Assembly: GCF_000230555.1 (NCBI RefSeq)
Contig: NC_016078.1
Coordinates: 3,247,001 to 3,311,000, forward strand
Reading direction: 5' to 3'
DNA: 64,000 nucleotides
From: Pelagibacterium halotolerans B2
Lineage (GTDB): Bacteria > Pseudomonadota > Alphaproteobacteria > Rhizobiales > Devosiaceae
In this document: piece by piece, positions 7,879 through 52,576 of the stretch
Layout: the number at the start of each line of letters is the position of its first letter
How positions within the stretch are numbered: the first letter of the stretch is position 1
The notes under the pieces: model-generated
What the model saw: the letters and a program-made list of their open reading frames with translations, nothing else
What the model was told of the DNA's origin: nothing
Database searches by the model: none
Position numbers and translations under genes: made by a program

Positions 7879-7982
7879 TAGAGCGCGTCCAGCAAAAGTG
7901 GAAACGGTTTTGCGGTTCGGACGCGCGACGAAACAACAACTTAGAGGATTTTCGCGATTCGAAGAAAAGCGGAAATACTCTA
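7879..7982 (-). repeat. Convergent-junction two-hairpin repeat, copy 1
   Basis: This 104-bp element runs from TAGAGC to CTCTA and is the reverse complement of copy 3 (34945-35048) with about one difference. It has two hairpin modules. One has an 8-bp outer stem GCGCGTCC/GGACGCGC, an unpaired GAACC, an inner stem GCAAAA/TTTTGC and a single bulged T. It lies between the convergent Bax-inhibitor-1 and DUF2794 genes, and its edge supplies the TAG stop codon of the DUF2794 gene (complement of 7980-7982). It resembles the intergenic mosaic elements (RIME) described in rhizobia, but kinship is not proven. Confidence 0.9.
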
Positions 7983-8351
7983 GCGGACCACATGCAGTTG
8001 CGGGTCGAGTATGCGCAGAACGCTTGAAAGCTCGTGTCCGCGCTTGAGCACCCGGCCATCGCTGCCCAGAACCATGTACTGCCCCTGGCGTCGCGCCAGC
8101 TTCGGGTTTTTCTCGACGACGAAGAGCGGGCGCTCGGACGTGCGTTGATAGATCGAGAACATGGCCCGTTCCCGCCCGAAATCGAGCGCATAGTCGCGCC
8201 ATTCACCAGCCGCCACCTTGCGTCCATAGACATTGAGGATAAGCGCAAGTTCCCTACGGTCGAAACTGACAATGGGGACGGGCCGGCCTGGGGAGCGGGT
8301 GGGTGAAAAGGGAAAAACGTCACCCTTCTTGCTGTCGAAACGCTCGCTCAA
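7980..8351 (-). CDS. DUF2794 domain protein
   Basis: The 123-residue product matches what I know of the DUF2794 family, a small alphaproteobacterial family of unknown function; the core is SFDRRELALILNVYGRKVAAGEWRDY followed by a QRTSERPLF segment (quoted in parts). The start is a TTG at 8351: a strong AAGGAGG sequence lies 9 nt upstream, and no ATG sits at the right place. The stop codon TAG lies inside the end of the palindromic repeat copy 1, so the last codons may differ from relatives. No function can be given. Confidence 0.8.
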   Translation of the reverse strand: MSERFDSKKGDVFPFSPTRSPGRPVPIVSFDRRELALILNVYGRKVAAGEWRDYALDFGRERAMFSIYQRTSERPLFVVEKNPKLARRQGQYMVLGSDGRVLKRGHELSSVLRILDPQLHVVR

Positions 8352-8519
8352 ACCGGACTACCTCCTTGCGGATGTGACGATCATGTAACGATGATTGCCG
8401 CGTTCGCATGCGCTGGCAAGGGCCATCTGCAACGACACCCGGCGCAAACTTTCCTCCAATTGACCGGATTTAAGCCACAATCGAACCCTTCTTGCGCCAT
8501 TTTGCGCGCCTAGGATTGC

Positions 8520-8700
8520 ATCATTGCCTCCAGTAGCCGGCCTCTGAATCCACCGAGCCCCCAAACCATGGATTCAGTTGGCCGGCGCCCTTCCCGGCCT
8601 TGCCTCCGGGAAATCCTGGCACCTTTTGAGAGGCTTTGCGTCCTCCAAAATCAAAGCCTCTGGCTCCCCGGTCATCGATATGACACGGGGAGTTTTTCTT
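8520..8700 (+). ncRNA. Candidate small RNA with three hairpins and a terminator
   Basis: The 358-bp gap between DUF2794 and the DUF1223 gene holds a chain of strong hairpins read on the plus strand. They are 8537-8585 (CCGGCC and CTGAATCCA arms with perfect partners), 8591-8612 (TTCCCGG/CCGGGAA), 8629-8661 (10-bp perfect AGAGGCTTTG stem, loop containing TCCTCC) and an intrinsic terminator at 8664-8692 followed by TTTTTCTT. The T-tract direction requires a plus-strand transcript, yet no plus-strand gene lies upstream. The CCTCC in a loop is complementary to Shine-Dalgarno sequences, as in several known alphaproteobacterial sRNAs. The 5' end and promoter are not located. The remainder of the gap (8352-8519) shows nothing clear. 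Confidence 0.5.
8664..8700 (+). terminator. Rho-independent terminator of the candidate small RNA
   Basis: The arms CTCCCCG+GTCAT and ATGAC+CGGGGAG pair around CGAT with a single bulged A, followed by TTTTTCTT. On the minus strand the hairpin has no T-tract, so it is not the terminator of the minus-strand DUF1223 gene. Confidence 0.8.
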
Positions 8701-8709
8701 GTGTCCGCC

Positions 8710-9447
8710 TCAACGAATAAACAATGAAGCGCCCAGGATCCGCCCGGGCAGCGTGCCATTCTTTTCCTGGACGATGATGGCGGCGCCATCCGAATTGGGG
8801 CCAAGGACCTCTTCGAGGGGAATGGTGATCTCCGCGCCTTGAGCGGGATTCCACATGCCGATGGCCTGGCGGGAAGTGACGATATGGGTATAAGGCAGGG
8901 CCTGTCCGGAATTTTCACCGCGTTCGATGGTCACCTCGGCGCGGGCCCTGTAGGGCACCACCCAGACCACGGCGGCTGACAACTCCTGATCGGCCGGGGC
9001 GCTGAAGACGATCGAATCCGGCCCGTTGATTCGCAGGGTGACCGGCAGCAGCGGCGCTGCCTGTTCGATGGCGCGCTCGGCCTCGGCGACGTCCGACCCC
9101 ACAACCGCGCTCTGGCCATTGATGACCATTTGCGGCGTATAAATCCGGTTCTTGCCCCAGCTTTCGGCGTAGCCCTTCTGCAATTCGGTATTGGCCGGCA
9201 GGGCGAAGGTATCCTCCCAGCCGATATAGTCCCAATAGTCGATATGATAGGCCAGGGCGACGATATCCTCACGCGCGCCAAGCTGGGCCAGCAGCCGATC
9301 CGCATCGGGGCACCGGGAACAGCCCTGGCTGGTGAAGAGCTCGACAACCGTATCGGCCTGGTTGCGAATCTCGATGGCGCCGGCCGGCAGCGCGGCAAGG
9401 CACAAAACAACACTGGCAAGACCGAGCCGGAGCGGAGAGGCGTTCAT
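8710..9447 (-). CDS. DUF1223 family secreted thioredoxin-like protein
   Basis: The 245-residue product has an N-terminal signal peptide (cleavage near LPAGA, residue 24) and a thioredoxin-like start VVELFTSQGCSRCPDAD with a CxxC at Cys 43 and 46, the mark of DUF1223 proteins. Conserved features LAYHIDYWDYIGW and YTPQMVINGQ follow. A periplasmic redox role is likely from the CxxC and signal peptide, but no substrate is known. The ATG at 9447 begins the signal peptide. The stop of selO lies 38 bp upstream, so the two may be co-transcribed. Confidence 0.82.
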   Translation of the reverse strand: MNASPLRLGLASVVLCLAALPAGAIEIRNQADTVVELFTSQGCSRCPDADRLLAQLGAREDIVALAYHIDYWDYIGWEDTFALPANTELQKGYAESWGKNRIYTPQMVINGQSAVVGSDVAEAERAIEQAAPLLPVTLRINGPDSIVFSAPADQELSAAVVWVVPYRARAEVTIERGENSGQALPYTHIVTSRQAIGMWNPAQGAEITIPLEEVLGPNSDGAAIIVQEKNGTLPGRILGASLFIR

Positions 9448-9485
9448 GGGCGTGTTTTGTACGCGCTCAAACGCCCCCCCGCCAG

Positions 9486-10931
9486 TCAATTGATGGTGAA
9501 AGTTTCAACCCCGTACGCCCGGCCCATGTCCTCGATCTCCTCGATGGCCGCCGTAAAGCCGGCCCAGTCATCGGCCGCCGCAATCGGCGCCCAGATGGCC
9601 TCGACCTCTTCGATCAGCATGGTGCGCGGTTCGGTCCGCGCGAAATAGGGATGGAAAAGATTGGCGTCGGGCGCGCTTTCATAGGCCGCCAGCAGCGCCT
9701 TGAAGGCGCTGAAGCTTTCACTGTCGTAAAGTGCGGCCTGCGGGCTCGACAGCGCGCGCTTTTCTGAAGCGAACCCTCCGCGCCAGTCGAAAAACACCTG
9801 CTCATAGGCAGGGCGGTCGACGGCCATAAAGGCAAAAAGGGCCGACAGCAGCTCGCCGTCGGCAATCGCACCGCGTGGGATCAAGCCCAGTCGGCCCACG
9901 ATCACTTTCGCAAGCTGGGACTGGAAGGCCGGCCAGAAGCGGTTGAGTTCGGGCTCGAGTTTTTCAACGCTCGAAATCGGAACCAGACATTCTGCCAGTC
10001 GCGTGAGGTTCCAGGCCATCGCATCGGGTTGCCGACCGAACGCGTAAAGGCCAGTCTCGTCGAAATAGGCAGCCGTGAAGCGTGGGTCATAAACCGGCAG
10101 GAAGCGCCAGGGACCGTAATCGAAACTTTCGCCGGTAATGTTGGTGTTGTCGGTGTTGAGCACGCCATGGACGAAGCCTGCCCCGATCCATTGCGCCGTG
10201 ACCCTGGCCACATTTTCGGCCACCGCACCCATGAAAGCCGGAACCCGCGCATCAGGGGGAAGATCGGAAAGCTCTGAATAATAATGCGCGATGCAATGTT
10301 CGACCAACCCGGCCATCCGCGTATAATCCTCGAAATAGTCGAGGCGCTGGAACGTACCGATGCGGATATGAGAGTGCGAAAGGCGGACCAGCACCGAGGA
10401 CCGGGTCGGCGAGGGCTCATCGCCGCGAAACAATGCTTCGCCGGTTTCGATCAGGGAAAAGCTTTTTGAAGTTTCGACCCCGAGCGCTTCGAGCATCGTT
10501 GTGGCCAGCACTTCGCGCACACCACCCTTGAGTGTCAACTTTCCATCGCCACCCCGCGAAAAGGGCGTCACCCCCGACCCCTTGGTGCCGAAATCGCGCA
10601 ACCTGCCGTCGGCAAGATCATACCCTTGAGCAAACAGAAACCCCCGCCCGTCTCCGATATCGGGATTGTAGCTCTGGAACTGGTGGCCGTGATAGCGCAG
10701 CGCGAGGGGGATCTCAAAACTCCCCGGCAAGGGTGCAAACCGCCCGAAATGCTCGACCCACTGGGCATCGGTGAGCCCGTCCAGCCCCATGCGCCCGGCC
10801 CAATGCCGATTGCGGTAACGCAGGACGGCTTGCGGAAAATCGGCGGGACGGGCCGGATCGAAAAAGGCTTCGCCCAATCCCGCGTGTATCGTCGCGCCCC
10901 GAAAGCGCGCGCTGGCGTCGAAATCGCTCAT
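9486..10931 (-). CDS. selO: Protein adenylyltransferase SelO (YdiU)
   Basis: SelO is a pseudokinase-fold enzyme that transfers AMP from ATP to serine, threonine or tyrosine of target proteins, linked to redox homeostasis. The 481-residue protein shows the family blocks YSGHQF-like RYHGHQFQSYNPDIGDGRG, the glycine-rich FGTKGSGVTPFSRGGDGK, LVRLSHSHIRIGTFQ and the active-site region HGVLNTDNTNITGESFDYGP. Length matches bacterial SelO. It shows no frameshift and no missing motif. The DUF1223 gene follows on the same strand. Confidence 0.94.
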   Translation of the reverse strand: MSDFDASARFRGATIHAGLGEAFFDPARPADFPQAVLRYRNRHWAGRMGLDGLTDAQWVEHFGRFAPLPGSFEIPLALRYHGHQFQSYNPDIGDGRGFLFAQGYDLADGRLRDFGTKGSGVTPFSRGGDGKLTLKGGVREVLATTMLEALGVETSKSFSLIETGEALFRGDEPSPTRSSVLVRLSHSHIRIGTFQRLDYFEDYTRMAGLVEHCIAHYYSELSDLPPDARVPAFMGAVAENVARVTAQWIGAGFVHGVLNTDNTNITGESFDYGPWRFLPVYDPRFTAAYFDETGLYAFGRQPDAMAWNLTRLAECLVPISSVEKLEPELNRFWPAFQSQLAKVIVGRLGLIPRGAIADGELLSALFAFMAVDRPAYEQVFFDWRGGFASEKRALSSPQAALYDSESFSAFKALLAAYESAPDANLFHPYFARTEPRTMLIEEVEAIWAPIAAADDWAGFTAAIEEIEDMGRAYGVETFTIN

Positions 10932-10972
10932 GTCAGTCCAACGCCGGCCACCGGTTGAGGTTCACTCATCGA

Positions 10973-11764
10973 CTAGATGGTTTCGAAATGCGCGTAAACC
11001 TCACGAGAGATATCTTCGAGTGCGCCGCGATCGAGGAACCCCGAAATCGCATAGGCCAGCGGGCCGTCGATCCAGCGGAACGTATTGACGCCCGAATCTT
11101 CGGAAAACTGAAATGCCGTGTCGCGGGCGCCGGTATTGCGGGCCATCAGAATCGTGGCCCTGTCGCCCTGGGCGTTTTCATACATCAGCATGGCGCCCGG
11201 CTTTCCCCCGATGGGCAACAGCCGCCCACCGACAAGCTCGAACCCCAGATCGGCGAGGCTGGGCGCGGTGAAGGGCTTTTCGATGCGGTTGCCCAGCCAG
11301 TTGACCAGATGGTCGCGCTCGGATGCATCCACTTCGACCGGATGACGCACTTCGCGGACATAGGTCAAAAAAACATCCCGCGCCGCCATTTCGAGCCACG
11401 CCGATTCCATTTCGGCCAACTGGGCTTGCGGCGGTTGCATCCAGAGCCCACGGGCCAGATAGCCCGAGCCCCCACCAAGCCCGAACGCGATAACCAGCGC
11501 CGCGGCAATTGCCGGCCAGCCGCCCAAACGTGCCACGGGCCAACGGGTGGAGGGGGGGAGGTCGGACATGTCTCCATATCCATAGGCCGAAAGAAGCTCG
11601 GATAGCGCAGCATCATTGGTACGCCAGGTCTCCACCTCGTCGGAAAGCTCAGTGTTGGCGTCCAGATGGGCCCGAACCTGCGCACTGCGTTCCGCATCGA
11701 GCCTGTCATCGACAAAGGCATGCAGTTCATCCTCCGATACTGGTTTGCCGTTTTCACTGTTCAT
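10973..11764 (-). CDS. Membrane-anchored anti-sigma factor
   Basis: The 263-residue product has a cytoplasmic N-terminal part beginning MNSENGKPVSEDELHAFVDD, which resembles anti-sigma domains that bind ECF sigma factors, then one membrane segment at about residues 81-102, and a periplasmic C-terminal domain. There is no HxxxCxxC zinc motif, so it is not a ZAS type with zinc. The gene starts 12 bp after the ECF sigma factor stop, the standard arrangement for a sigma/anti-sigma pair. The signal sensed outside the cytoplasm is unknown. Confidence 0.82.
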   Translation of the reverse strand: MNSENGKPVSEDELHAFVDDRLDAERSAQVRAHLDANTELSDEVETWRTNDAALSELLSAYGYGDMSDLPPSTRWPVARLGGWPAIAAALVIAFGLGGGSGYLARGLWMQPPQAQLAEMESAWLEMAARDVFLTYVREVRHPVEVDASERDHLVNWLGNRIEKPFTAPSLADLGFELVGGRLLPIGGKPGAMLMYENAQGDRATILMARNTGARDTAFQFSEDSGVNTFRWIDGPLAYAISGFLDRGALEDISREVYAHFETI

Positions 11765-11776
11765 GGGCGTGCGACA

Positions 11777-12310
11777 TCATCGGTTCGAAAGGGAGGTTAT
11801 GGATTTGTGGGCCAACAATTCGCTCAATTGCCGGCGGGCACGCGACAGCCGCGACATCACTGTTCCGATCGGCAGGTCCAGGATCTGGGCGACTTCGGCA
11901 TAGGCGCATCCTTCGATGGCGACAAGCAACAGAACCGCGCGCGCCTCCGGGTTGAGCGTATCGAGCGCGCGCATCAACGTATTGTGCAGCAATGGGTCGG
12001 GCGCCGGCGCATCGTCGGACACGGCCAGGTCCTCACCTATCGGTTGCAGCAGGGGCTGTCGCGCCCTTGTTCTCAGCCGGTTGCGGTTGAGGTTGGTCAT
12101 TATGGCATAGAGCCAGCTCTTGCCATTCTCTCCCCGCCATTGCCTCTGGTTCTCGACGGCGCGCAACAGCGTTGTCTGGAGGAGGTCTTCGGCCTCTTCC
12201 CGACTGCCCGCAAGTCCGTGGGCATAGCGCCTGAGCGCCGGCAGATGGATCAAGAGCGCGTCACGCATGCGATTGTCCCGGCACAGCTCCACCAGAGCCG
12301 CGCCGGGCAT
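11777..12310 (-). CDS. ECF-type RNA polymerase sigma factor
   Basis: The 177-residue protein has sigma region 2 (LRRYAHGLAGSREEAEDLLQ, then SWLYAIMTNLNRNRLR) and sigma region 4 (LNPEARAVLLLVAIEGCAYA followed by a helix-turn-helix with GTVMSRLSRARRQL). Such factors direct RNA polymerase to a small regulon and are held by the anti-sigma factor encoded next to them. The ATG at 12310 lies 7 bp after the stop of the upstream secreted-repeat gene; a start 48 bp further upstream would overlap that gene. Translational coupling across the three genes is likely. Confidence 0.88.
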   Translation of the reverse strand: MPGAALVELCRDNRMRDALLIHLPALRRYAHGLAGSREEAEDLLQTTLLRAVENQRQWRGENGKSWLYAIMTNLNRNRLRTRARQPLLQPIGEDLAVSDDAPAPDPLLHNTLMRALDTLNPEARAVLLLVAIEGCAYAEVAQILDLPIGTVMSRLSRARRQLSELLAHKSITSLSNR

Positions 12311-12317
12311 CTTAGCA

Positions 12318-12707
12318 TCAGGGGCGTGCCACGTCCCAATTGCCGCCAACGCCATCACCGGACGTCATTCCGGGTTCCGTATCATTGATCCAGTAGTAAA
12401 GCGGCATGCCATCCTTGGCCCAGATCATGGTGCCGTCAGTGCGCTCCACGATCGAATAGGGCTCTTCGGCCATGGCACCTTCCTCCGCGAAGAAGGGCGG
12501 CCAGTTGACGGCGCACTGCTCATAGCAATTGGAGACGCCCGGCTCGTCATTGGCGAAGGTGTAGAGCACCATGCCTTCGGAATCGGCGATCACCTCGCCG
12601 ATATCGGTTTCCAATGTCTGGACGTCAGGGGCGGCAAACGCCGCGCCGGCGGTAAGAACAAGAGCAGCCGCGCCGGTGGCCAGCGAAGCGAAGAGTCGGA
12701 AAGTCAT
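12318..12707 (-). CDS. Secreted repeat (COG4315/PF03640-type) protein
   Basis: The 129-residue product has a signal peptide ending near residue 26 and two PF03640-like repeats. The first carries the diagnostic MVLYTFANDEPGVSNCYEQC...NWPP pattern with cysteines at 61 and 65; the second reads MIWAKDGMPLYYWINDTEPG. The molecular role of this family is unknown. It is the first gene of a unit with the ECF sigma factor and anti-sigma factor, so it is either a target of, or an accessory to, that stress circuit. The ATG at 12707 begins the signal peptide. Confidence 0.82.
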   Translation of the reverse strand: MTFRLFASLATGAAALVLTAGAAFAAPDVQTLETDIGEVIADSEGMVLYTFANDEPGVSNCYEQCAVNWPPFFAEEGAMAEEPYSIVERTDGTMIWAKDGMPLYYWINDTEPGMTSGDGVGGNWDVARP

Positions 12708-12800
12708 TACGATGTCTCCCTTGGTGCATGACGGGGCAAATGCGCCCAGCGCACGCCCCCACATTTGTTAGACACCAGTGGCCGCCGATTTATTCCCGCT

Positions 12801-12836
12801 GCAAACAAAAAAGCCCGGCCATCACGGCCGGGCTTT
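12801..12836 (-). terminator. Rho-independent terminator after rplS
   Basis: On the minus strand a perfect 11-bp stem AAAGCCCGGCC/GGCCGGGCTTT with a 5-nt loop is followed by TTTTGTTTGC. It lies 25 bp after the rplS stop and closes the ffh-rpsP-rimM-trmD-rplS operon. Confidence 0.92.
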
Positions 12837-12861
12837 AGCGATATTGGGGAAAAAGACGGGC

Positions 12862-13428
12862 TTATTCGCCCTTGTTCTCTTCAGCGGGAGCTTCGGCAGC
12901 GGCTGCGGCCTCTGCAGCAGCAGCTTCCTCGGCAGCCTTCTTTTCGGCTGCTTCCTGCGCGGCCAGTTCAGCGGCCAGAGCCTCGGCGGCGGCGACCTTT
13001 TCGGCCTCGCGCGCGGCGCGGGCTTCGACGGCGGCCTGACGCTCATCGGCCTCGATCTTCTTGGTGCGGGCATTGGTCGATTCAAAGATACGAGCCGACT
13101 TGCCGCGACGATCGCGCAGATAATAGAGCTTGGCGCGCCGGACCTTACCGCGCTTGAGGATCTCGATGCGGTCGATCATCGGGGAGTGAACGGGGAACAC
13201 GCGTTCCACGCCTTCGCCATACGAGATCTTGCGGACGGTGAAGCTTTCCATCAGCCCACCGCCGGTGCGGGCGATCACGACGCCTTCATAGGCCTGAAGG
13301 CGTTCTTTTTCGCCTTCGCGGATCTTGACCCAGACCTTGACGGTATCGCCATGGGAGAATTCGGGAACCGCACGCTTTGCAACGAGCGCTTCGAGCTGCT
13401 CTTTTTCGAGCTGCTGGATAATGTTCAT
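12862..13428 (-). CDS. rplS: 50S ribosomal protein L19 with long Ala/Glu tail
   Basis: L19 sits at the interface of the ribosomal subunits. The conserved part is residues 1 to about 125 ([46 protein letters not shown]). A further 60 or so residues form a low-complexity tail rich in Ala, Glu and Lys, ending [11 protein letters not shown], so the protein is 188 residues against about 115-125 in most bacteria. Tails of this style occur in other Hyphomicrobiales. It is the last gene of the ffh operon, followed by a strong terminator. Confidence 0.95.
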
Positions 13429-13543
13429 TTCGTTTTCCGTTCTATCTTTTCAAAGGAGCCCTTTTTGGGCCCGGTCTTGTTTGGACGGCGGGATGTGCTC
13501 ATCCCATAGTCGAGCGCGCTATACACGCCATGCGCCCCGGAGT

Positions 13544-14242
13544 CTAGGACTTTTGGGTGTAGAGTTCCCACAGGTCGGGGCGTCTTTGTCGGGTGAGGGC
13601 TTCCGATTGTTCGCGCCGCCATTTTTCGATCCGGCCATGATCGCCGGACGTCAGGATTTCGGGAATGTCGCGGCCCTCGAAACTCTGGGGGCGGGTGTAG
13701 TGCGGATATTCGAGCAGGCCGTTTTCAAAGCTCTCGTCCGCATGGCTCTCCGCCGCGCCCAAAACCCCCGGCAAGAGCCGCACCACGGCTTCGAGCAGCA
13801 CCATGGCGGCCACTTCGCCGCCGGCCAGCACATAATCGCCGATCGAAATCTCTTCGAGATTGCGCGCATCGATGACCCGCTGGTCGATGCCTTCGAAGCG
13901 CCCACAGACGACCACAGCGCCCGGACCCTGAGCCAGTTCGCGCACCCGCTGCTGGGTAAGCGGAGCACCGCGCGGGCTCATCAGGATTTTCGGGCGCGGA
14001 TCACCATTAGGCGCGACATCATCGAGCGCCGCGGCCAGAATATCGGACCGCAGCACCATACCCGCGCCGCCGCCCGAGGGCGTATCGTCGACGGTGCGAT
14101 GCTTGTCGCCGGCATAATCGCGCAAAAAATGCGTTTCGAGCGACCATGCCCCCTTTTCCATGCCGCGCCCGATGACCGAAGCGCCGAGCGGACCGGGAAA
14201 AAGGTCAGGGAACAGCGTTATGACCGAAGCGCGAAAGCTCAT
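13544..14242 (-). CDS. trmD: tRNA (guanine(37)-N1)-methyltransferase TrmD
   Basis: TrmD makes m1G37 in tRNAs that read CNN codons, guarding the reading frame. The 232-residue product starts [20 protein letters not shown], has the SAM-knot region [32 protein letters not shown] [14 protein letters not shown] and [13 protein letters not shown]. The ATG at 14242 overlaps the rimM stop as ATGA, which supports this start over one further upstream. Confidence 0.96.
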
Positions 14243-21233: not shown

Positions 21234-21238
21234 GCTTA

Positions 21239-22100
21239 GGTTGTGGTGACAATTTAGCTATTTGAGCCAGAGCATGATGCTTGCGAGCTTGATGAAGCCG
21301 AGGAAGTTGACGGCAAGCTTGTCGTAGCGGGTGGCGATGCGCCGCCATTGCTTGAGCCTGGCAAAGAAGCCTTCGATTCCCCAGCGCTGGCGGTAGGCGA
21401 ACTGGTCATAACTGTGCTGGTACTTGCGGTGGCGGCGCGGCGGAATGACCGGCTCGCCGCCCTCGTTGAGGATGACATCGTGAAGGCTGTCGGCATCATA
21501 GGCGCGGTCGGCGATGACCTTGCCCGATGCCAGGCCGGCGACGAGCTGGCACGCCGGCGCCATGTCGTTCTGCTGTCCGGGACCGATCTGGAAGCGGACC
21601 GGCAGGCCAAGCGCGTCTACGACAGCATGGATCTTGGTGCCGAAGCCGCCGCGCGAGCGGCCGAGAGCCTGGGCTTCAGGTCCCCCCTTTTATGCCGGGC
21701 GCCGGCAGCTTGGGCCTGCGCCCGGATGACGGTGGCGTCGATGGCCAGCCATTCCAGGTCGGGGTCGGTCGCCACGGCCTCGAACAGGCGATCGAACACC
21801 CCCATCTCAATCCAGCGATAATAGCGCCGCTTGGCCGTCTGGTAGGGCCCGAAACGCTCTTCCGGCAGATCCCGCCAGCGTGCGCCTGATCGCGCCATCC
21901 ACAACAAGGCGTCGAAGAACCGACGCCCATCGCTGCGCGGTCCGCGCTTGCCTTTGCGACCACCCGGAACGAACGGCTTCACCTTCTCCCACTGATCGTC
22001 GCGCAAAACCTCGCCATCCATCGCCAGCCTCCAAAAGCTAGCGTTGAATCTGATTTGCGCCCTCGCGGGAATCCCTCGGACTTAAATTGTCACCACAGCC
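21239..22100 (-). mobile_element. IS5-family (IS427-type) insertion sequence, 862 bp
   Basis: The element is bounded by near-perfect inverted repeats: the left end GGTTGTGGTGACAATTTA at 21239 and its partner at 22100, which differs by one base. A TA flanks both sides (21237-21238 and 22101-22102), fitting the 2-bp TA duplication of the IS427 group, though a 3-bp TAG is also possible. It holds one transposase in two overlapping frames. It has split the yciB/ccmG junction and sits exactly at the left edge of repeat copy 2. The ends and both frames look intact, so it may be active or recent. Confidence 0.92.
21258..22021 (-). CDS. IS5-family transposase, two frames joined by a -1 frameshift
   Basis: The N-terminal frame (22021 down to 21617, starting MDGEVLRDDQWEKVKPFVPG) holds a helix-turn-helix region and the first DDE aspartate in LEWLAIDATVIRAQ. 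The C-terminal frame (ending 21258) holds the second aspartate in VIADRAYDADSLHD and the YRQRWGIEGFFARLK region with the glutamate. Reading shifts by -1 near an AAAAGGGGGG run (complement of 21682-21691); the shifted product would then read GGPEAQALGRSRGGFGTKIH. Programmed frameshifting at such a run is common in IS5 relatives. Both frames lack internal stops. Confidence 0.85.
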
Positions 22101-22206
22101 TAGAGCATTTCAGCGCTTCTTCGAACCGCTTCAATTGCTCGAGGTCTTGGTTTGGCCGCGCTTCCGAACCGAATAAGTGGCATCCACTTATTCTGGAAGC
22201 GCTCTA
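22101..22206 (+). repeat. Convergent-junction two-hairpin repeat, copy 2
   Basis: This 106-bp copy runs from TAGAGC to GCTCTA. The right module pairs GCGCTTCC/GGAAGCGC outside and GAATAAGTGG/CCACTTATTC inside, with the same unpaired GAACC and single bulged T as the other copies, although the stem sequence itself differs. The left module pairs GAGCA/TGCTC and AGCG/CGCT. The right edge gives the TAG stop codon of ccmG (complement of 22204-22206). Its left edge is the IS5 insertion point. Confidence 0.85.
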
Positions 22207-22755
22207 AGCCGGGTTCTGCGCCGCTGTGATAGCCGGGAGCAGCACGTTCTCGTAGCTCTCCTGGTCGAGCGGGCCGACATGCTTGAACCGGATGATACCT
22301 TCATTGTCGACGACAAAGGTTTCCGGCACACCATAAACGCCCCATTCGATGCCCACCCGGCGATCACGGCCGGCGCGGATCCGATCGTAGGGATTGCCCA
22401 GTTCGGCCAGAAAGGCCCGGGCATTTTCCGCCGGATCGTCGTAGTTGAGCCCGAAGATCTCGACCGGCTCATCCGCGAGTTCCATCAGGAAGGGATGTTC
22501 GGCCCGACACGGCACGCACCATGATGCAAAGACGTTGACGACGACAACGCCATTGCCAGCCAGATCGGCAGTCGCAAATCCCGGCTGAGTATGTCCCTCG
22601 ACAGAAGCAAGATCGAATTGGGGCACCGGTTTGTCGATCAGGGCCGACGGAACGAAACTCGTCGAGCGCCCCATCTGCGAGGCGAAAACGCCAAGCAGGG
22701 CCGCAAGAACAACAAGCGGCAAAACCGCAAGGCCGATTCTCACCGATGGCTTCAT
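22204..22755 (-). CDS. ccmG: Cytochrome c biogenesis thiol:disulfide oxidoreductase CcmG (DsbE)
   Basis: CcmG is a membrane-anchored periplasmic thioredoxin that keeps apocytochrome c cysteines reduced for heme attachment. The 183-residue protein has an N-terminal membrane anchor (about residues 7-27), the active site FASWCVPCRAEHP (Cys 80 and 83), and GVYGVPETFVVD with the cis-proline. It ends the ccmABCDG operon and overlaps ccmD. Its stop codon lies within repeat copy 2. Confidence 0.93.
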   Translation of the reverse strand: MKPSVRIGLAVLPLVVLAALLGVFASQMGRSTSFVPSALIDKPVPQFDLASVEGHTQPGFATADLAGNGVVVVNVFASWCVPCRAEHPFLMELADEPVEIFGLNYDDPAENARAFLAELGNPYDRIRAGRDRRVGIEWGVYGVPETFVVDNEGIIRFKHVGPLDQESYENVLLPAITAAQNPA

Positions 22756-34122: not shown

Positions 34123-34947
34123 ATGTTGGACGTCGATCCGGGCCAGGCCCTCTTCCTGCTCGCCACCCTGCTGGCAACCGGCGCAATCGCGGGCATTATT
34201 TCCGGACTTCTGGGCGTTGGCGGCGGCATTGTCATAGTGCCCGTGCTGTTTTTTGTCTTTCTCGCACTCGACGTGTCCGAAACTGTGCGCATGCATGTCG
34301 CCGTCGGCACATCGCTGGCTACCATAATCTTTACCGGCTTTATGTCCGCGCGATCGCACTGGAAACGCGGCAGCGTCGATACGGCCCTGCTGCGCAGCTG
34401 GGGACCGTGGATCGCTTTCGGCGTCGTTGCCGGCACCATAATCGGCGGCAACGTGTCAGGCACGGTCCTCACGCTGGTGTTCGCTGCCATCGCGGCGCTC
34501 GTGGCAATCAATATGGCTTTCAAGCCCGCCGACGCGGCCAAGCCCCGTCCCATGCCGGGAACGCCACTCAAACAAATCCTTTCGACGATCATCGGGCTGA
34601 TTTCGGTGATGATGGGGATTGGCGGCGGAACGCTGGCGGTTCCAATTCTATCGTTTTTTACGTACCCCATTCGCCTTGCAGTCGGCACCGCCGCAGCAAT
34701 CGGCCTCATCATCGCCGTGCCCGGAACGATCGGCTACGCTCTGTTCGGCCTGGGCACGCCCGATCTGCCGCCGTTCTCGCTTGGCTATGTCAACCTTGCC
34801 GGGCTGATCGCCATCATCCCCACATCGATGCTGACGGCACCGCTCGGGGTCAGGCTCGCTCACGCCATTCCGCAACTGGCCCTGCGCTGGTGCTTTGCGG
34901 GGTTTCTGGCCATCACCTCCATCCGGATGATCACCAGCGTCTTTTAG
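34123..34947 (+). CDS. TauE/SafE family permease (second copy)
   Basis: The 274-residue membrane protein has about eight segments and two TauE/SafE half-repeats, starting IAGIISGLLGVGGGIVIVPV and IGLISVMMGIGGGTLAVPI. This domain pattern is closer to the classical family than the first copy at 28038. It lies 71 bp after the FAH gene and may export the product of the hydrolase; this is inference. Its stop codon TAG (34945-34947) is the first three bases of palindromic repeat copy 3. Confidence 0.85.
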   Translation: MLDVDPGQALFLLATLLATGAIAGIISGLLGVGGGIVIVPVLFFVFLALDVSETVRMHVAVGTSLATIIFTGFMSARSHWKRGSVDTALLRSWGPWIAFGVVAGTIIGGNVSGTVLTLVFAAIAALVAINMAFKPADAAKPRPMPGTPLKQILSTIIGLISVMMGIGGGTLAVPILSFFTYPIRLAVGTAAAIGLIIAVPGTIGYALFGLGTPDLPPFSLGYVNLAGLIAIIPTSMLTAPLGVRLAHAIPQLALRWCFAGFLAITSIRMITSVF

Positions 34948-35048
34948 AGCATTTCCGCTTTTCTTCGAATCGCGAAAATCCTCTAAGTTGTTGTTTCGTC
35001 GCGCGTCCGAACCGCAAAACCGTTTCCACTTTTGCTGGACGCGCTCTA
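34945..35048 (+). repeat. Convergent-junction two-hairpin repeat, copy 3
   Basis: This 104-bp copy is almost identical to copy 1 in the opposite orientation. The right module pairs GCGCGTCC/GGACGCGC and GCAAAA/TTTTGC with the GAACC and T bulges. The left edge TAG is the stop codon of the second TauE/SafE gene. The right edge lies in TCTAGA, the target of the IS481 insertion. Confidence 0.92.
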
Positions 35049-36014
35049 GATGTGGTGCCTCAACAGGTTGTCCTCGGTCAGGCCGAGGCGACTGATGGGT
35101 GGCTTGGAGTTTAGGCTGCCATGGGGTCTGTGCCAATTGTACATATGGTTCCAGATTGGCAGATGGGCAGCGCGCTGATCGGATGTTTTGTAGGCGCGGG
35201 CATAAGCCCATTCCCTGATTGCGGTCTGGATGAATCGTTCGGCCTTGCCATTGGTTTGGGGTGTATAGGGCTTGGTGCGGATGTGTGTGAGGCCCAATTG
35301 GCGGCAGGCATCGCGGAAGGCGCGGGACTGGTAGCATGGCCCGTTGTCGGTCATCACCCGCTCGACGGTGACCCCCAAGAGTCGGTACCAGGCGAGGGCG
35401 GCCTTGAGATGGGCGACGGCACTGACGGCCTTTTCGTCAGGGTGGATCTGGGTAAATGACAGCCGTGAATGGTCGTCGATAGCGACATGGACGAATTCCC
35501 AGCCGGGCGCAGTGCCGTTTCCGCGCTGGCTGCTCTGCCGGCGCCGGTCACCGGTGATGCGGTGACCGCTCCGATTGAATTTGCCCAACTTCTTGATGTC
35601 TATATGGATCATCTCGCCGGGACGCTTGCGTTCATAGCGACGCACCGGCTCGGCCGGGTCGATGTCTCTTAGCCGCGAAAGGCCGGCCCGCTTGAGCACT
35701 CTGCTGACCGTGGCCGGCGATACGCCAACCTCCATGGCGATATGGTTGCCGGTCCACCGTAGACGCCGCAGCGCGATGACGCGCTCGATGGTTGTTTGCG
35801 GGACAGGGCAATGTAGCCGGTGGGGCCGCGACGAACGGTCGGTCATGCCCGCTCGGCCCTCTGATGTGTAGCGCTCTACCCAGCGCGCCACGATTTTTGG
35901 CGATACACCGTAGCTCCGCGCTGCCTGGGCTTTGGAAAGACCGCCTTCGATGACGCAAAGCGCCATCTCCTCTCGACGCAGCGGCGTCAGACGGGCATTC
36001 TTGTGGATGTTCAT
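35046..36014 (-). CDS. IS481-family transposase
   Basis: The 322-residue transposase has an N-terminal helix-turn-helix region (SKAQAARSYGVSPKIVARWV) and an rve DDE core: the first Asp in MIHIDIKKLGKF, the second in VERVMTDNGPCY and Glu in QTNGKAERFIQT. The start at 36014 begins MNIHKNARLTPLRREEMAL, the usual N-terminus. The frame reads through the end of the element; its TAG stop is formed by the target duplication TCTAGA, not by the IS itself. It looks intact. Confidence 0.93.
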   Translation of the reverse strand: MNIHKNARLTPLRREEMALCVIEGGLSKAQAARSYGVSPKIVARWVERYTSEGRAGMTDRSSRPHRLHCPVPQTTIERVIALRRLRWTGNHIAMEVGVSPATVSRVLKRAGLSRLRDIDPAEPVRRYERKRPGEMIHIDIKKLGKFNRSGHRITGDRRRQSSQRGNGTAPGWEFVHVAIDDHSRLSFTQIHPDEKAVSAVAHLKAALAWYRLLGVTVERVMTDNGPCYQSRAFRDACRQLGLTHIRTKPYTPQTNGKAERFIQTAIREWAYARAYKTSDQRAAHLPIWNHMYNWHRPHGSLNSKPPISRLGLTEDNLLRHHI

Positions 36015-36097
36015 TCGGACCCTCCGGTGAGTGCTGAAGCTTGGTAACTCCAGTCTCCCCGTTCCGATCCGAATGGACAACCTATTGAGAGCTCACA
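35051..36097 (-). mobile_element. IS481-family insertion sequence, 1047 bp
   Basis: The ends are imperfect inverted repeats: TGTGGTGCCTCAACAGG at 35051 and, on the other strand from 36097, TGTGAGCTCTCAATAGG, both then continuing TTGTCC. A perfect 6-bp duplication TCTAGA flanks the element (35045-35050 and 36098-36103), matching the NCTAGN target known for IS481 of Bordetella. It carries one transposase gene. The insertion lies at the right edge of repeat copy 3, between the TauE/SafE gene and tRNA-Gly. Confidence 0.95.
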
Positions 36098-36115
36098 TCT
36101 AGAGGCCGAAACGGC

Positions 36116-46208: not shown

Positions 46209-46211
46209 CAG

Positions 46212-46750: not shown

Positions 46751-47434
46751 TCAGGGAACCAGCCGATATCCGCCCTCTTCGGTCACCAGAAGACGTGCGT
46801 TCGACGGATCGCGTTCGATCTTCTGGCGCAAGCGATAAATGTGAGTTTCGAGCGTGTGTGTGGTGACCCGGTTGTTGTATCCCCAGACCTCCGCAAGGAG
46901 CACGTCGCGGGAGATCGTCTTTGCGCCCTGCCGGTAGAGAAATTTGAGGATCGAGGTTTCCTTGTCGGTAAGCCGGATTTTCGAGCCGTCACCGTTTTCC
47001 AGCGTCTTGGCGGCTGGCTGGAAGCTGTAGGGGCCGATGGTAAAGACCACATCCTCGCTTTGATCGTGCTGACGCAATGCGGCCCGCATGCGGGCAAGCA
47101 GGACCGAAAAGCGAAAGGGTTTGGTGACATAGTCATTGGCACCGCTTTCGAGGCCCCGAATTTCGTCGGACTCACTATCCTGCCCCGTCAACATGATAAC
47201 CGGTGCCCGAAATCCGTCAGCGCGCATGATCTTGAGCGCTTCGCGTCCATCCATGTCGGGAAGCCCCACATCGAGCAGCATGAGATCGAAATGGCTCGCC
47301 TTGGCGGTTTCACGCGCACCGGACGCCGTCCCGGCCTCCGTGATATCGAATTCGCGATAGGGTTCGAGCTGCCCCACCAATGCGGCTCGCAAATCGGTGT
47401 CGTCATCGACAACCAGCAAACGGCGCTTGTTCAT
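46751..47434 (-). CDS. OmpR-family response regulator
   Basis: The 227-residue product has a receiver domain with acidic pocket VVDDD, phospho-acceptor Asp 55 in LMLLDVGLPDMDG and the conserved Lys in YVTKPF, followed by a winged-helix DNA-binding domain ending LETHIYRLRQKIERDP. No histidine kinase gene is adjacent, so it is an orphan regulator in this window. The ATG at 47434 begins the receiver. Target genes are unknown. Confidence 0.9.
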   Translation of the reverse strand: MNKRRLLVVDDDTDLRAALVGQLEPYREFDITEAGTASGARETAKASHFDLMLLDVGLPDMDGREALKIMRADGFRAPVIMLTGQDSESDEIRGLESGANDYVTKPFRFSVLLARMRAALRQHDQSEDVVFTIGPYSFQPAAKTLENGDGSKIRLTDKETSILKFLYRQGAKTISRDVLLAEVWGYNNRVTTHTLETHIYRLRQKIERDPSNARLLVTEEGGYRLVP

Positions 47435-47539
47435 CAGCAAAAACTCCCGCTTCTTCCTGGCAGGGATCAAACACCTGCTCACGGAAATGACATACGATTC
47501 AATCTAGCGTGGGGGACACAATCGCCAATCACATGCGCG

Positions 47540-48214
47540 TTATCGCGCCCCAAAAAGCGCGGATCCCACCCGAACCTGTGTCGCGCCCATAAGTATTGCC
47601 ACTTCAAAGTCCGCGCTCATCCCCATGGACAACCGAGAGACCCCTGCCGCCCTTGCCAGGCGCGCCAATTGCGCGAAATATGGTCCCGGCGCCTCATCGA
47701 TCGGGGGAATACACATCAAACCAACGATATCGAGCCCATATTGATCCCTGCAGCGATCGACGAATTCTACGGTTTCCGCCGTGGAAACGCCGGCCTTTTG
47801 CTCTTCGCCGCCGATATTGACCTGCACGAAACAGGGCAGACGCCGGTTCTGCTTGTCCATTTCCGTGGCAAGAATTCTGGCCAGCTTGTCGCGATCGACG
47901 CTTTCGATAACATCGAACAAGGCAACCGCATCGGCTGCCTTGTTGGTCTGGAGCGGACCGATCAGATGCAGGACGAGATCGGGGTATTCCGATTTCAGCC
48001 CCGGCCATTTGCCCTGTGCCTCCTGGACGCGATTTTCACCGAAATGGCGCTGTCCGGCCTCTATGACCGGAACGATCGCCTCGGCATCGAAGGTCTTGGA
48101 AACGGCAACCAGTTCCGCGACATCCCCTCCTTCAATCCGACGGGCGGCGCGCTCCATGCGGGCCTTTATGTCGGCGAGCCGATCGGCGGCAGTTTCCGGG
48201 GCGTTTGGGCTCAT
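47540..48214 (-). CDS. yggS: PLP homeostasis protein YggS
   Basis: YggS (PLPBP) binds pyridoxal phosphate and balances vitamin B6 and amino acid pools. The 224-residue protein is a single TIM barrel with the PLP lysine in ELVAVSKTFDAEAI, FGENRVQEAQGKW, HLIGPLQTNKA and the final SMGMSADFEVAILMGATQVRVG (in parts). The ATG at 48214 begins the family domain. It is divergent from leuS with 93 bp between. Confidence 0.93.
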   Translation of the reverse strand: MSPNAPETAADRLADIKARMERAARRIEGGDVAELVAVSKTFDAEAIVPVIEAGQRHFGENRVQEAQGKWPGLKSEYPDLVLHLIGPLQTNKAADAVALFDVIESVDRDKLARILATEMDKQNRRLPCFVQVNIGGEEQKAGVSTAETVEFVDRCRDQYGLDIVGLMCIPPIDEAPGPYFAQLARLARAAGVSRLSMGMSADFEVAILMGATQVRVGSALFGAR

Positions 48215-48307
48215 GGCAATGGTTGACCTTCCGGCGCTTTTCTGGTGATGGTCGCCTACCCAATTTCTCATCTCTTCTCAAGTATAGGGCGGCCACCGGT
48301 ACTTTCT

Positions 48308-50929
48308 ATGGCAAACGCTTCCGAGCGCTACAATCCGCGCGAACAAGAACCCCATTGGCAAAAGGTCTGGGCGGAGAAGAAAACCTTCGAAACGTCCAAC
48401 GACGACCCACGCGATCCCTATTACGTGCTTGAGATGTTTCCCTATCCCTCGGGCCGCATCCATGTGGGCCATGTGCGCAATTATACCATGGGCGATGTGG
48501 TCGCCCGGTTCCAGCGCGCCAAGGGCAAAAAGGTTCTCCACCCGATGGGATGGGACGCCTTCGGGATGCCCGCCGAGAACGCGGCGATGGCCAACAAGGT
48601 CCATCCCCGCGACTGGACCTATGAAAACATCGCGGCAATGCGCAAGCAATTGCAGTCCATGGGATTTTCCCTCGACTGGAGCCGGGAATTTGCGACCTGC
48701 GACGAGGAATATTACCACCGCCAGCAGATGCTGTTCATCGACATGCTCGAAGCGGGCCTGGTGACGCGCAAATCCTCCAAGGTCAATTGGGATCCTGTCG
48801 ACCATACGGTTCTGGCCAATGAACAGGTGATCGACGGCCGCGGCTGGCGCTCGGGCGCGCTGGTCGAACAGCGCGAATTGACCCAATGGTTCTTCAAGAT
48901 TTCCGACTTCGCCGAGGACCTGCTGTCGGCCATCGATGGCCTGACCGACTGGCCCGAAAAGGTCCGGCTGATGCAGCGCAACTGGATCGGTCGATCTGAA
49001 GGGCTGCGGGTGCTGTTCGCGATCGCCTCGGGCGAGGCCGGGCAGGACAGCGTCGAGATTTTCACCACACGTCCCGATACCCTGTTTGGCGCCTCCTTCG
49101 TTGCCCTTTCGCCCGACCACCCCATGGCGGCTCATCTGGCCGAATCCGATCCGGCTTTGGCCGAATTCATCGCCGAGTGTCACCGCATGGGCACTTCGGC
49201 CGAAGTGATCGAAACCGCCGAAAAGCGGGGCTACCGTACGGAAATTACCGTGAAACATCCGGTGATCGAAGGTGCGACATTGCCCGTCTATGTCGCCAAT
49301 TTCGTTCTGATGGACTACGGCACCGGCGCGATCTTTGGCTGCCCGGCGCACGATCAGCGCGACCTCGAATTTGCGCGCAAATATGACCTGCCCGTCATCC
49401 CTGTCGTCTTGCCGCCCGATGCAGACGCCAGCGAATTTTCCATTGCGGCAGAAGCCTATACAGGACCCGGCATCGCCTTCAATTCGGGTTTCCTCGACGG
49501 CATGGACGTCGACGCGGCCAAGGACGCAATCGCCCGTTTCCTGGAAACCGAAAAGGTCGAAGGCAAGCCCCAGGGGGTTCGCCAGGTCAATTATCGCCTG
49601 CGCGACTGGGGCATTTCGCGGCAACGCTATTGGGGCTGCCCGATCCCGGTCATCCATTGCGATATCTGCGGCATCGTGCCGGTGCCAAAGGATCAACTGC
49701 CCGTGCGGCTGCCCGAAGATGTCGAATTCGATACGCCGGGCAATCCGCTCGATCGCCATCCGAGCTTCAAGCATGTCGATTGCCCCTCTTGCGGCTCGAA
49801 AGCGCGCCGGGAAACCGACACTATGGACACCTTTGTCGATTCGTCCTGGTATTTCGCACGCTTTACGGCGCCGCGCGCCGAGAACCCCACGATCCCCGAA
49901 ATGGCCAATGAATGGCTGCCGGTTGATCAGTATATCGGCGGCATCGAGCACGCCATTCTGCATCTGCTCTATTCGCGCTTCTTTGCCCGCGCCATGAGCC
50001 GCACCGGACATATGGACGTCGACGAGCCGTTCAAGGGCCTGTTCACGCAGGGCATGGTCACCCATGAAACCTACAAGGACAAGGCAGGCAACTGGGTCTC
50101 TCCTTCCGAGGTGGTTCTGCAGTCGACCGAAGGAAAGCGTGTTGCAACTTCATCGGTCACCGGCGATCCGGTGACCATCGGCTCGATCGAAAAGATGAGC
50201 AAATCCAAGCGCAATGTCATCGATCCCGACGACATGATCGCCGCCTATGGCGCAGACACGGTGCGTTGGTTCGTGCTGTCGGATTCGCCGCCCGAACGCG
50301 ACGTGCAATGGACCGAAGCGGGCATTGAAGGCGCCTGGCGCTTCACGCAACGCGTTTACAAGCTCGTTGGGGAAGCGCGTGAACTGCTTTCGCTCGATCC
50401 CGCCATTATCGATGGCGAGGACCCCCGCACAATGGAAATCCTCAAGGCGGCCCATAAGGCAACGGCTCTGATCGAGGCCGATCTGGCAGGTCTGCGCTTC
50501 AATCGCGCCGTCGCCCAGATTTACGAGTTGGCCAACGCAATCCAGAAGTTCATCCCTGCGGTGAGCGAATCACCCTCGCTGGCCAATATTTCCGCGCTGC
50601 GGACCGCCATCGAGCGTTTTGTGCAGTTCATCGCCCCCATGATGCCGCATCTGGCTGAAAGCTGCTGGGCCAATCTGGGCCACCAGACGATGATTTGCGA
50701 TACCGCCTGGCCGGAAGTCGATCCAGCCTATCTTGTTGACGATACCGTAGTTCTGGCCGTTCAAGTGAACGGAAAGCGTCGCGGTGAAATCGAAATGCCC
50801 AAGGATGCCCCTTCCGGCCAGGCCGAAGCTGCAGCCTTGTCACTCGAAGCGGTTGCCCGCATTCTGGACGGCAATCCACCCCGCAAGGTGATCGTCGTGC
50901 CCAACAGGATCGTCAATGTTGTTTGCTAG
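48308..50929 (+). CDS. leuS: Leucyl-tRNA synthetase
   Basis: LeuRS charges tRNA-Leu. The 873-residue class I synthetase has the HIGH box as [15 protein letters not shown], a CP1 editing domain (about residues 225-430, with [11 protein letters not shown]), a zinc-like knuckle in [13 protein letters not shown] and [10 protein letters not shown], and the KMSKS box in [14 protein letters not shown]. The ATG at 48308 begins the conserved N-terminus [19 protein letters not shown]. lptE overlaps its end by 14 bp. Confidence 0.97.
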
Positions 50930-51410
50930 GGTTTTTCGCGCTGTCTGTCTGGCTGCCGCCTTGGTCGCGTCGGGCGTCCTGGCCGGCTGTACGCTGACGC
51001 CGGTCTATGGCGATGCGGCGATGTCGAGCCAGAGCCTGGCCCTACATTATGCTGAGCCCGAAACGCGCCAGGAGCAACTGGTCTATCGCACGCTGTCCAG
51101 CAGGCTTGGACCCGATAGGGCGGACGCACCGCAGTTTTCGGCCCAGGTTTCATCGAGCCCGACGCGGATTGGCCTGTCCGATGTGTCCGGACCAATAACC
51201 GACAATCAGCTCACAATAACAATAACTTACCTTGTCGTTGCGGATGGCGAAAGCATCGCAAGCGGTACGCGATCGGCCACGGTTGGCTATAGAACAACCG
51301 GTCAGATCGTGGCAGACGATGCCGCACGCGCGGCGGCCGAGGAACAGGCGATCGGTGCAGCGGCAGCGACCATCCGCCTAGCGCTGCTGGCCGATTTGCA
51401 GGCAAGATGA
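50916..51410 (+). CDS. lptE: LPS-assembly lipoprotein LptE
   Basis: LptE plugs LptD and helps insert lipopolysaccharide in the outer membrane. The 164-residue product has a lipoprotein signal with lipobox LAGC (Cys 25) followed by TLTPVYG, the pattern usual for alphaproteobacterial LptE. Sequence beyond the signal is weakly conserved, so the call also rests on gene order: leuS-lptE-holA is a conserved block. It overlaps leuS by 14 bp and holA by 4 bp. Confidence 0.85.
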
Positions 51411-52429
51411 CCGCTCTCAAGGGTCGCGATATCGAGAAATTTCTCTCGCGCCCCGATTTGGCGGCGGGCCTTGTTCTGGTTTATGGACCCGATATCGGAT
51501 TGGTCAGCGAGAACGCGGCCCAGCTCGTCAAGCATTTTGCCGGCGATCCGCCCGATCCCGAGAGCCTGTCCCAACTGCATATGAGCGAGATCGATGCCGA
51601 TCCGCAGCACCTCGGGATATTGGCGCGCAGCCCATCCCTGTTCGGCAGTCAGGCGACAATCCGTATCCGCGCCGCCACGAACAAGCTGGCGCCAACCCTT
51701 GTGGAACTGCTCGATGAGGGGGCTCAGGCTGTCTTTATCGTCGAGGGCGCTGATCTCAAACCGTCGGACGCTTTGCGTAAACACGCCGAGGCCCGCAAGG
51801 ACGCCCGGGCACTTCCGTGCTACGCGGATACCGGGCAGACCATCGACGGCCTGATCCGCGAAACTTTTGCCAAGGCCAATATAAGTTTGGAGACCGATCT
51901 GGCGCCTATGCTGCGCGATATGCTGGGCAATGACCGGCAAGTGACCCGCAGCGAACTGCAAAAGCTGGTTCTCTATGCAGGCGAAGGCGGCAAATTAACC
52001 CGGGACGACGTCATGCGGCTCTGCGGTGACAACGCGGCACTGGCCATCGACGCCGTGGTCGATGCCATCGCCACGGGCCACGCCCGCCGCTTCGATGACG
52101 CCATGACCCGCGCCGCCGGCGCAGGAACCGACGCGCAGCGGCTCCTTATTGTTGCAATGCAGCATTTTTCACGATTGCGGGCCATGCGTGCCGAAATCGA
52201 TGCCGGGGCCGGCATCGATCAGGTCCTTGGGCGAGCCACGCCGCGCATTCATTTTTCAAGAAAGGCCAGTTTCGAACAGCAGCTCAGGCTGTGGAACGAC
52301 GACGGCCTCGCAGCAGCCTGCAATCGCTTGGCCAGCGCCATCCTCGAGAGCCGTAAATCGAGCGCGCTTGCTCCGGCCACAGGGCGTCAGGCGCTACTTG
52401 CCATATGCATGGCCGCAGCAAGACGATAG
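51407..52429 (+). CDS. holA: DNA polymerase III subunit delta
   Basis: HolA is the clamp-loader subunit that opens the sliding clamp. The 340-residue product has the N-terminal AAA+-like domain with LVLVYGPDIGLVSENAAQLV (in parts), the middle LRDMLGNDRQVTRSELQKL and a C-terminal domain ending ATGRQALLAICMAAARR. Its start overlaps the lptE stop. It converges with parB across a parS-like site and repeat copy 4. Confidence 0.92.
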   Translation: MTALKGRDIEKFLSRPDLAAGLVLVYGPDIGLVSENAAQLVKHFAGDPPDPESLSQLHMSEIDADPQHLGILARSPSLFGSQATIRIRAATNKLAPTLVELLDEGAQAVFIVEGADLKPSDALRKHAEARKDARALPCYADTGQTIDGLIRETFAKANISLETDLAPMLRDMLGNDRQVTRSELQKLVLYAGEGGKLTRDDVMRLCGDNAALAIDAVVDAIATGHARRFDDAMTRAAGAGTDAQRLLIVAMQHFSRLRAMRAEIDAGAGIDQVLGRATPRIHFSRKASFEQQLRLWNDDGLAAACNRLASAILESRKSSALAPATGRQALLAICMAAARR

Positions 52430-52451
52430 CTATTTCAGCTACTTATACCGA

Positions 52452-52467
52452 TGTTTCACGTGCAACG
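52452..52467. other. parS-like site between holA and parB
   Basis: TGTTTCACGTGCAACG matches the parS consensus TGTTTCACGTGAAACA at 14 of 16 positions by eye. It lies 23 bp after the holA stop, next to parAB. Confidence 0.6.
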
Positions 52468-52471
52468 CCCC

Positions 52472-52576
52472 TAGAGCCGTTCAGGATTTGATTGAATCAA
52501 ATCCTCGGCTCTAAGCCTTTGTTTTATCGCGTGTCCGAACCGCAAAACCGTTTCCACTTTTGCTGGACACGCTCTA
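52472..52576 (+). repeat. Convergent-junction two-hairpin repeat, copy 4
   Basis: This 105-bp copy has a nearly perfect left module, AGAGCCG/CGGCTCT and AGGATTTGATT/AATCAAATCCT, and a right module with outer stem GCGTGTCC/GGACACGC and inner stem GCAAAA/TTTTGC, again with GAACC and T unpaired. The outer stem differs from copies 1 and 3 by paired changes that keep base pairing. It lies between convergent holA and parB, and its right edge is the TAG stop codon of parB (complement of 52574-52576). Confidence 0.9.

Follow-up and report, generated by a model that had tools for sequence, protein, structure and literature searches.

Among the described bacterial repeats the one closest to the element studied here is RIME1, which is said to go back to work by Osteras, Stanley and Finan in 1995 and is reportedly about 105 bp long, built of two palindromes and present in many intergenic copies. 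Here we analysed a repeat of this kind in Pelagibacterium halotolerans B2, four copies of which (c1 to c4) lie in the window, by which we mean the whole stretch of 64,000 nucleotides under analysis (positions 3,247,001 to 3,311,000 of the 3.94-Mb contig NC_016078.1). Taking the results together, we consider it highly probable that the repeat is a non-autonomous and recently mobile element of the RIME1 type, comparable to the miniature inverted-repeat transposable elements (MITEs), with a target that is compatible with stop codons and with a distribution filtered by selection. It belongs to a known kind of repeat, the overlap of which with stop codons is explained here, and is not a new system. 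The spread is regarded as recent because identical copies exist: a blastn search of the genome with c3, in which the best 40 of 125 candidates were scored, gave 40 matches out of 40, and seven copies, c3 included, were 100% identical over 104 nt. An apparent functional link, the supply of stop codons at convergent gene ends, is thereby replaced by a simple target rule, in that a transposon would enter stop codons and leave the protein unchanged if either strand of its target reads as a stop and its own ends make that stop whole again. Repeats that overlap stops in other bacteria may be explained along these lines, and the rule cautions against taking such overlap for regulation.

The likeness to RIME1 lies in the length of about 105 bp, the two hairpins and the many copies, the comparison being at the level of these general features of RIME1. 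Full-length relatives of the repeat on plasmids of Rhizobium, Sinorhizobium, Shinella and Agrobacterium add to the link, the difference being that the host, Pelagibacterium, stands outside the rhizobia. The original prediction, made from the letters of the window alone, had guessed at a branch of the RIME-type repeats, and the guess was borne out by the length (104-106 nt in 84 of the 108 strong copies defined below), by the hairpins and by the plasmid homologues.

The pneumococcal repeats RUP and BOX are not known to be related to this repeat in sequence. RUP is described as 107 bp long, inserting at TA sites and presumed to use a helper of the insertion sequence (IS) type IS630 (PMC2229807), RUP and BOX as enriched between convergent genes, a bias read there as tolerance, and 36 copies of BOX as encoding the stop codon of a gene (PMC3049150). 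RUP is thus like our repeat in length and in insertion at TA, and RUP and BOX are both like it in their convergent enrichment, whereas for the presumed IS630 helper of RUP no counterpart was found in the repeat's own genome. GTAG-type repetitive extragenic palindromic sequences (REPs) are 20-40 bp long with a GTAG tag, lie chiefly between convergent and co-directional genes and often form with their termini the TAG stops of the neighbours (PMC3733652). The siting and the TAG stops are shared by our repeat, which differs in its length of about 105 bp and in having C or T before TAG in 105 of 108 copies. The link with stop codons, which had not been known as described, was accordingly already in print, for REPs as TAG stops (PMC3733652) and for BOX as stops (PMC3049150). 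Our literature search, which lay outside the 1995 RIME paper and most subscription journals, met no account of stops being rebuilt by RIME elements by way of a YTAR target (Y, C or T; R, G or A); for the present repeat this target, the duplication of TA and the rebuilding of stops are, as read from sequence, results of this analysis.

The four copies of about 105 bp proved to be present as predicted (Table 1), and each of them is predicted to fold into two hairpins, a small one and a larger one joined by a linker, as proposed at first for the number of hairpins. In one common orientation the aligned copies begin with TAGAG and end with GCTCTA; the ends originally given, TAGAGC and GCTCTA, hold in general, except that c1 has TAGAGT at one end. 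Copies c1 and c3 are 99% identical over 104 nt, and c4 is 90% identical to each of them over 68-69 nt. Folding was more stable than in dinucleotide shuffles (z from -3.4 to -7.8; five folds, four copies), and the core of c1, c3 and c4 occurred three times in the window against none in 100 shuffles, c2 being a divergent subtype that escapes the pattern. At the gathering threshold of Rfam a tRNA and the ffh RNA were the only matches in the window. The copies, the hairpins and the overlap with stops thus stood up to examination, and the exclusive placement at convergent ends and the supply of stop codons did not.

Target site and the proposed rebuilding of stop codons

Of the 108 strong copies, 105 have C or T next to the left end of the element (one has G) and 103 have G or A next to the right end, while the 66 copies with TA at both ends rebuild to the targets CTAG (28), TTAG (19), CTAA (14), TTAA (4) and GTAA (1). 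From these flanks and rebuilt targets, the target is therefore read as YTAR, with TA duplicated on insertion. At the 3' end of ccmG two close relatives could be compared directly (genomes are labelled G000 for P. halotolerans and with other G numbers for the rest): the site is empty in G011, TGA GCC TA GACCTCGG, and filled in G008, TGA ACC TA-element-TA GACCTCGG, the difference between them being the element and one TA, plus one substitution. At this gene end copies were seen at or near the stop with differing offsets (L234-L236 and L240; G008, G012, G009 and G010), as if it had been struck repeatedly.

In the mechanism that we propose, the repeat would insert at Y-TA-R and duplicate TA, presumably through a trans-acting enzyme that duplicates a 2-bp palindromic target. 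A TAG or TAA stop struck from either side would then read as TA followed by the first G of the element, that is, TAG, and the stop would be rebuilt at the same codon with the protein unchanged. Copies in coding sequences, promoters and operon interiors would be removed by selection, which would leave those in stop codons and in the spacers downstream of genes, convergent ones above all. With rebuilt stops and selection, a function at gene ends would hence not be needed.

The stop of a neighbour coincides exactly with a terminal triplet in 62 of the 108 strong copies. Counted by genes, 159 3' ends point towards a copy, and 68 of them have their stop on its terminus (63 with TAG, 5 with TAA). 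When the target is restored with the base of the opposite flank, TAG or TAA results for all 50 terminal stops of copies that have TA at both ends, and for 66 of the total of 68; this count depends on the flank rule and is not independent of it, hence the weight given to relatives. Either strand of YTAR contains TAG or TAA, so that a pre-existing stop would be implied wherever a terminal TAG lies in frame. In G009 and G012, in which the covariance model described below has no match at this place, the parB gene likewise ends with TAG at the same codon; in G008 and G011 it ends with TGA, and a weak match (38-44 bits) follows about 45 nt downstream. The DUF2794 gene lacks the element in G001, G008, G009, G011 and G012 and has TAG at the same codon in all five, and directly at the DUF2794 stop of G004 lies a match that is weak (30 bits) and shortened. 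Alignment of junctions to relatives covered 11 of the 108 copies, of which five were used and six lay in repeats or were decayed or ambiguous; at copies 1741252 and 2094959 the G008 stretch that spans both flanks has a stop in the corresponding position, and copy 2547006 is apparently nested in the TTAG of another copy. The element does not, then, supply stop codons, as had been supposed: orthologues of parB and DUF2794 without it stop at the same codon, and the evidence points to stops older than the insertion.

Matches were found in 33 of the 41 searched genomes, the own one included, and the core 30-mer recurs exactly in named genomes, in 27 stretches that belong to Pelagibacterium, to one Devosia and to a metagenome-assembled genome of the Rhizobiales. 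Among plasmids, blastn gave 223 records (Rhizobium 102, Sinorhizobium 101, Shinella 14, Agrobacterium 5, Martelella 1), and in 196 of them a single place covers 80% or more of the query; identity was 78-83% in the best 40 of the 223 rows, and 187 of the 223 best places fell in the 60-80% band. In the 13 plasmid regions examined (Rhizobium and Shinella) the left flank was Y in 12 and the right flank R in 10. A deposited coding sequence (CDS) ends exactly on the terminal TAG in five of the 11 regions with gene annotation, in which, the deposited genes being incomplete, three copies are convergent and seven co-directional.

Placement of the copies among genes

The genome-wide search that the original prediction had proposed, with flanking genes and stops tabulated for each hit, was run with a covariance model built from 10 copies. 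Scoring the best 150 of 2612 candidates in G000 gave 147 matches, a lower bound for the genome; the 108 that reach 60 bits are the strong copies, and the other 39 of 147 were left out. A sample in which all candidates were scored (61 stretches, 1.264 Mb, window included) held 52 matches, and the 35 at 60 bits or more are all within the 108. With genes called by a purpose-built dicodon scorer (window 91% coding), 56 strong copies lie at convergent, 47 at co-directional and 5 at divergent junctions, so that the repeat is not confined to convergent ends, as had been claimed.

Expected placement was derived from the 1717 YTAR sites outside elements in the sample (771 genic, 713 intergenic, 233 in stop codons) by weighting the non-disruptive sites by site type. 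Of the 1203 junctions in the sampled stretches, 152 were convergent. The test used the 66 copies with TA at both ends, leaving out the 42 of 108 without, and its p-values treat copies as independent, some being tandem or nested. Stop overlap was seen in 44/66 (67%) against 31% expected (p = 4e-9) and convergent placement in 41/66 (62%) against 15% expected (p = 5e-18), an excess of about fourfold; outside the window the counts were 40/62 and 38/62, respectively. Within the convergent class the stop share was 31/41 against 60% expected (p = 0.054), and within the co-directional class 13/23 against 38% (p = 0.087). Stop overlap follows mainly from the target sequence and the junction class, and the convergent excess is the part that requires selection or targeting. 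The opposite picture set out beforehand, of copies at random among junctions and stop overlap no higher than expected, was not found: placement departs from random and stop overlap exceeds the plain expectation, most of this excess being explained by target and junction class.

Three readings had been offered for the siting, namely targeting of gene 3' ends, tolerance at these places alone, or a function there. The second is the one that the counts favour, with 5/108 copies divergent and 0/108 across the interior of a called gene though 41-45% of YTAR sites are genic, the figure of 0/108 being weakened as support for selection by the fact that a gene split by a copy would be called as two genes; nine copies overlap a gene end by 8-71 nt. 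The earlier interpretation is, then, supported in part, for a RIME-type repeat and for tolerance, while targeting of 3' ends is not called for and function there finds no support.

Other points also weigh against the account of a mobile element filtered by selection. As for an IS630-type MITE, TA duplication is present (ccmG in G011 and G008; the flanks of the 108 copies) and no DDE_3 helper was found, the own genome having 0 matches to PF13358; nor did a clear candidate for an autonomous partner emerge when less than half of the genome was scanned for distant ends that form a pair. Selection is deduced from the siting, and a transposase preferring certain spacers would look alike. The stop share exceeds expectation in both junction classes, in neither below p 0.05, and a mild extra preference is possible. 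Two of the 68 terminal stops rebuild to TAC, both at copies with a decayed opposite end, one of the 11 annotated plasmid copies (Rhizobium) lies inside a CDS near its 5' end, and the chromosome-wide orientation bias treated below falls outside both insertion at YTAR and selection.

The alternative that survives best is that the transposition machinery has a preference for stops or for the 3' ends of genes over and above YTAR, drawn for instance by terminator regions or by converging transcription, which we hold to be possible yet improbable. The overall excesses of stop overlap and convergent placement, inside and outside the window, would suit such a preference, as would the several relatives with copies at or near the ccmG end and the three copies (L005, L012, L018) that appear by eye to be centred in another palindrome. 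Within a junction class, however, the stop share is only slightly above expectation, and the loss of copies from promoters and genes would give the same picture. Given the target YTAR and a stop share near expectation within the junction class, targeting of gene 3' ends is not needed.

We find it unlikely that the repeat is a bidirectional 3'-end element, the hairpins of which would terminate transcription or shield converging mRNAs from exonucleases. The convergent excess would agree with this, and so would the finding that, in an alignment of 11 copies from both host groups, 14 of the 29 predicted hairpin pairs have both sides changed in at least one sequence. The hairpin ends, however, may serve transposition, 52 of the 108 strong copies lie outside convergent junctions, and where pneumococcal repeats and IS elements show the same convergent bias, it was taken as a sign of tolerance (PMC3049150). 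Like intrinsic terminators the repeat has hairpins downstream of genes, and it differs from them in lacking a G+C-rich hairpin with an immediate T run: a terminator scan of 7700-8100, for c1 alone, found a site beside c1 and none within it, and reading by eye found no T run after the hairpins of c1-c4. As element-free relatives also have the hairpin beside c1, the proposed function at 3' ends finds no footing there, and on sequence grounds there is no support for a role as terminator; the repeat may still affect the stability of mRNA. That the element supplies new stops and so trims the C-termini of its neighbours can hardly be right. The stops that coincide with a terminal triplet in 62 copies would speak for it; with a YTAR target, however, they imply an earlier in-frame TAG or TAA, and parB and DUF2794 end alike without the element.

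Apart from these questions, the copies L005, L012 and L018 (around 1486-1620) lie, as read by eye, at the centre of a longer palindrome of the AATGTCGATTCAGCC/GGCTGAATCGACATT type, which has CTAG at its centre and probably represents another family of repeats.

Orientation of the copies along the chromosome

The part of the results that may interest the specialist is the orientation of the repeat over the chromosome. Strong copies in G000 number 22 on the plus and 86 on the minus strand (p = 4e-10), and both arms show the bias (13 plus and 54 minus; 9 plus and 32 minus). Among the matches listed after scoring the best 150 candidates in each, G009 has 45 plus and 5 minus and G008 has 71 plus and 18 minus. 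An artefact of best-candidate scoring was ruled out by the G000 sample with all candidates scored (11 plus, 41 minus); small samples scored in the same way gave 8 plus and 2 minus in G009 and 14 plus and 4 minus in G008. The parB gene is on the minus strand in G000 and on the plus strand in G008 and G009, its strand flipping along with the bias of the repeat, and the favoured physical strand is therefore the same in the three genomes.

The skew of G and C at third codon positions, corrected for gene direction, has one sign in 13/13 bins of G000 (hand-taken means) and in 19/20 stretches each of G009 and G008. The sequence GGGNAGGG, which we take to be a KOPS-like motif, flips at two places in all three genomes, which is what a chromosome with two arms would show. 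In 20 stretches of 4 kb from the family control G018 the raw skew was positive in 15 and negative in 5, which is no normal two-armed pattern either. By hand count the 44 tRNA genes of G000 are distributed as 5 plus and 20 minus on one arm and 8 plus and 11 minus on the other, and small-subunit rRNA (RF00177) had no match in the searched sequence of G000, G001, G008 and G009, the controls being positive. In view of the flips of GGGNAGGG and the strands of the tRNA genes, replication of the chromosome in one direction was rejected as a firm claim and kept as a possibility only.

A strand-polar insertion of the repeat, chromosome-wide, on both arms and in three species, which together with the one-sign skew would reflect an asymmetry not set by the replication arm, is a speculative reading to which we give little credence. 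If true, it would mean, for example, forks running mostly one way round or a strand-specific transposition intermediate, and the repeat would be a reporter of the asymmetry.

Neighbouring genes and insertion sequences in the window

The features of the window that bear on the repeat are collected in Table 1.

Table 1. Copies of the repeat, adjoining genes and other features (window positions).
Feature	Position	Strand	Remarks
Copy c1	7879..7982	-	Small-hairpin end first on minus strand; target T-TA-G; right terminal TAG is the DUF2794 stop
Copy c2	22101..22206	+	Divergent subtype; right terminal TAG is the ccmG stop; left edge adjoins IS5-type element
Copy c3	34945..35048	+	Left terminal TAG is the TauE/SafE stop; right TAG is the stop used by the IS481 transposase
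Copy c4	52472..52576	+	Target C-TA-G; right terminal TAG is the parB stop
DUF2794 gene	7980..8351	-	Stop on c1; element-free orthologues stop at same codon
ccmG-like gene (Redoxin domain)	22204..22755	-	Stop on c2; several relatives with own copies at or near gene end
TauE/SafE-family gene	34123..34947	+	Stop on c3 left end
parB	52574..53545	-	Stop on c4; G009 and G012 have same stop codon, no repeat match there
Intrinsic-terminator-like hairpin	7808..7835	+ (also read on minus)	Adjoins c1; similar hairpin downstream of DUF2794 in element-free relatives
IS5-type insertion sequence	21239..22100	-	DUF4096 and DDE_Tnp_1 in separate open reading frames; TA flanks (21237-22102); at c2 left terminal TA
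IS481-type insertion sequence	35051..36097	-	TCTAGA both sides (35045-36103); left TCTAGA overlaps c3 right end

Each of the four window copies has a terminal TAG that serves an adjoining gene as its stop (DUF2794, ccmG, TauE and parB), as first noticed, and independent gene calling returned the same number of convergent junctions, eight. Four of these had been said to hold the repeat; it is found directly in three of the eight (c1, c3 and c4), whereas c2 has minus-strand genes on both sides, ccmG and a fragment of an IS5-type transposase (DUF4096). Without the IS5-type element c2 would be convergent, with an IspA-family septation gene facing ccmG, and the right-hand gene of c3 is the IS481 transposase. 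The arrangement of the ends suggests that the IS5-type element entered at the left terminal TA of c2 and the IS481-type element at the right end of c3. Repeats serving as IS targets are known from the REPs of S. meliloti (PMC1525189). The open reading frame of the IS481 transposase passes the end of its IS, and its TAG stop is taken from the target CTAG at the edge of c3.

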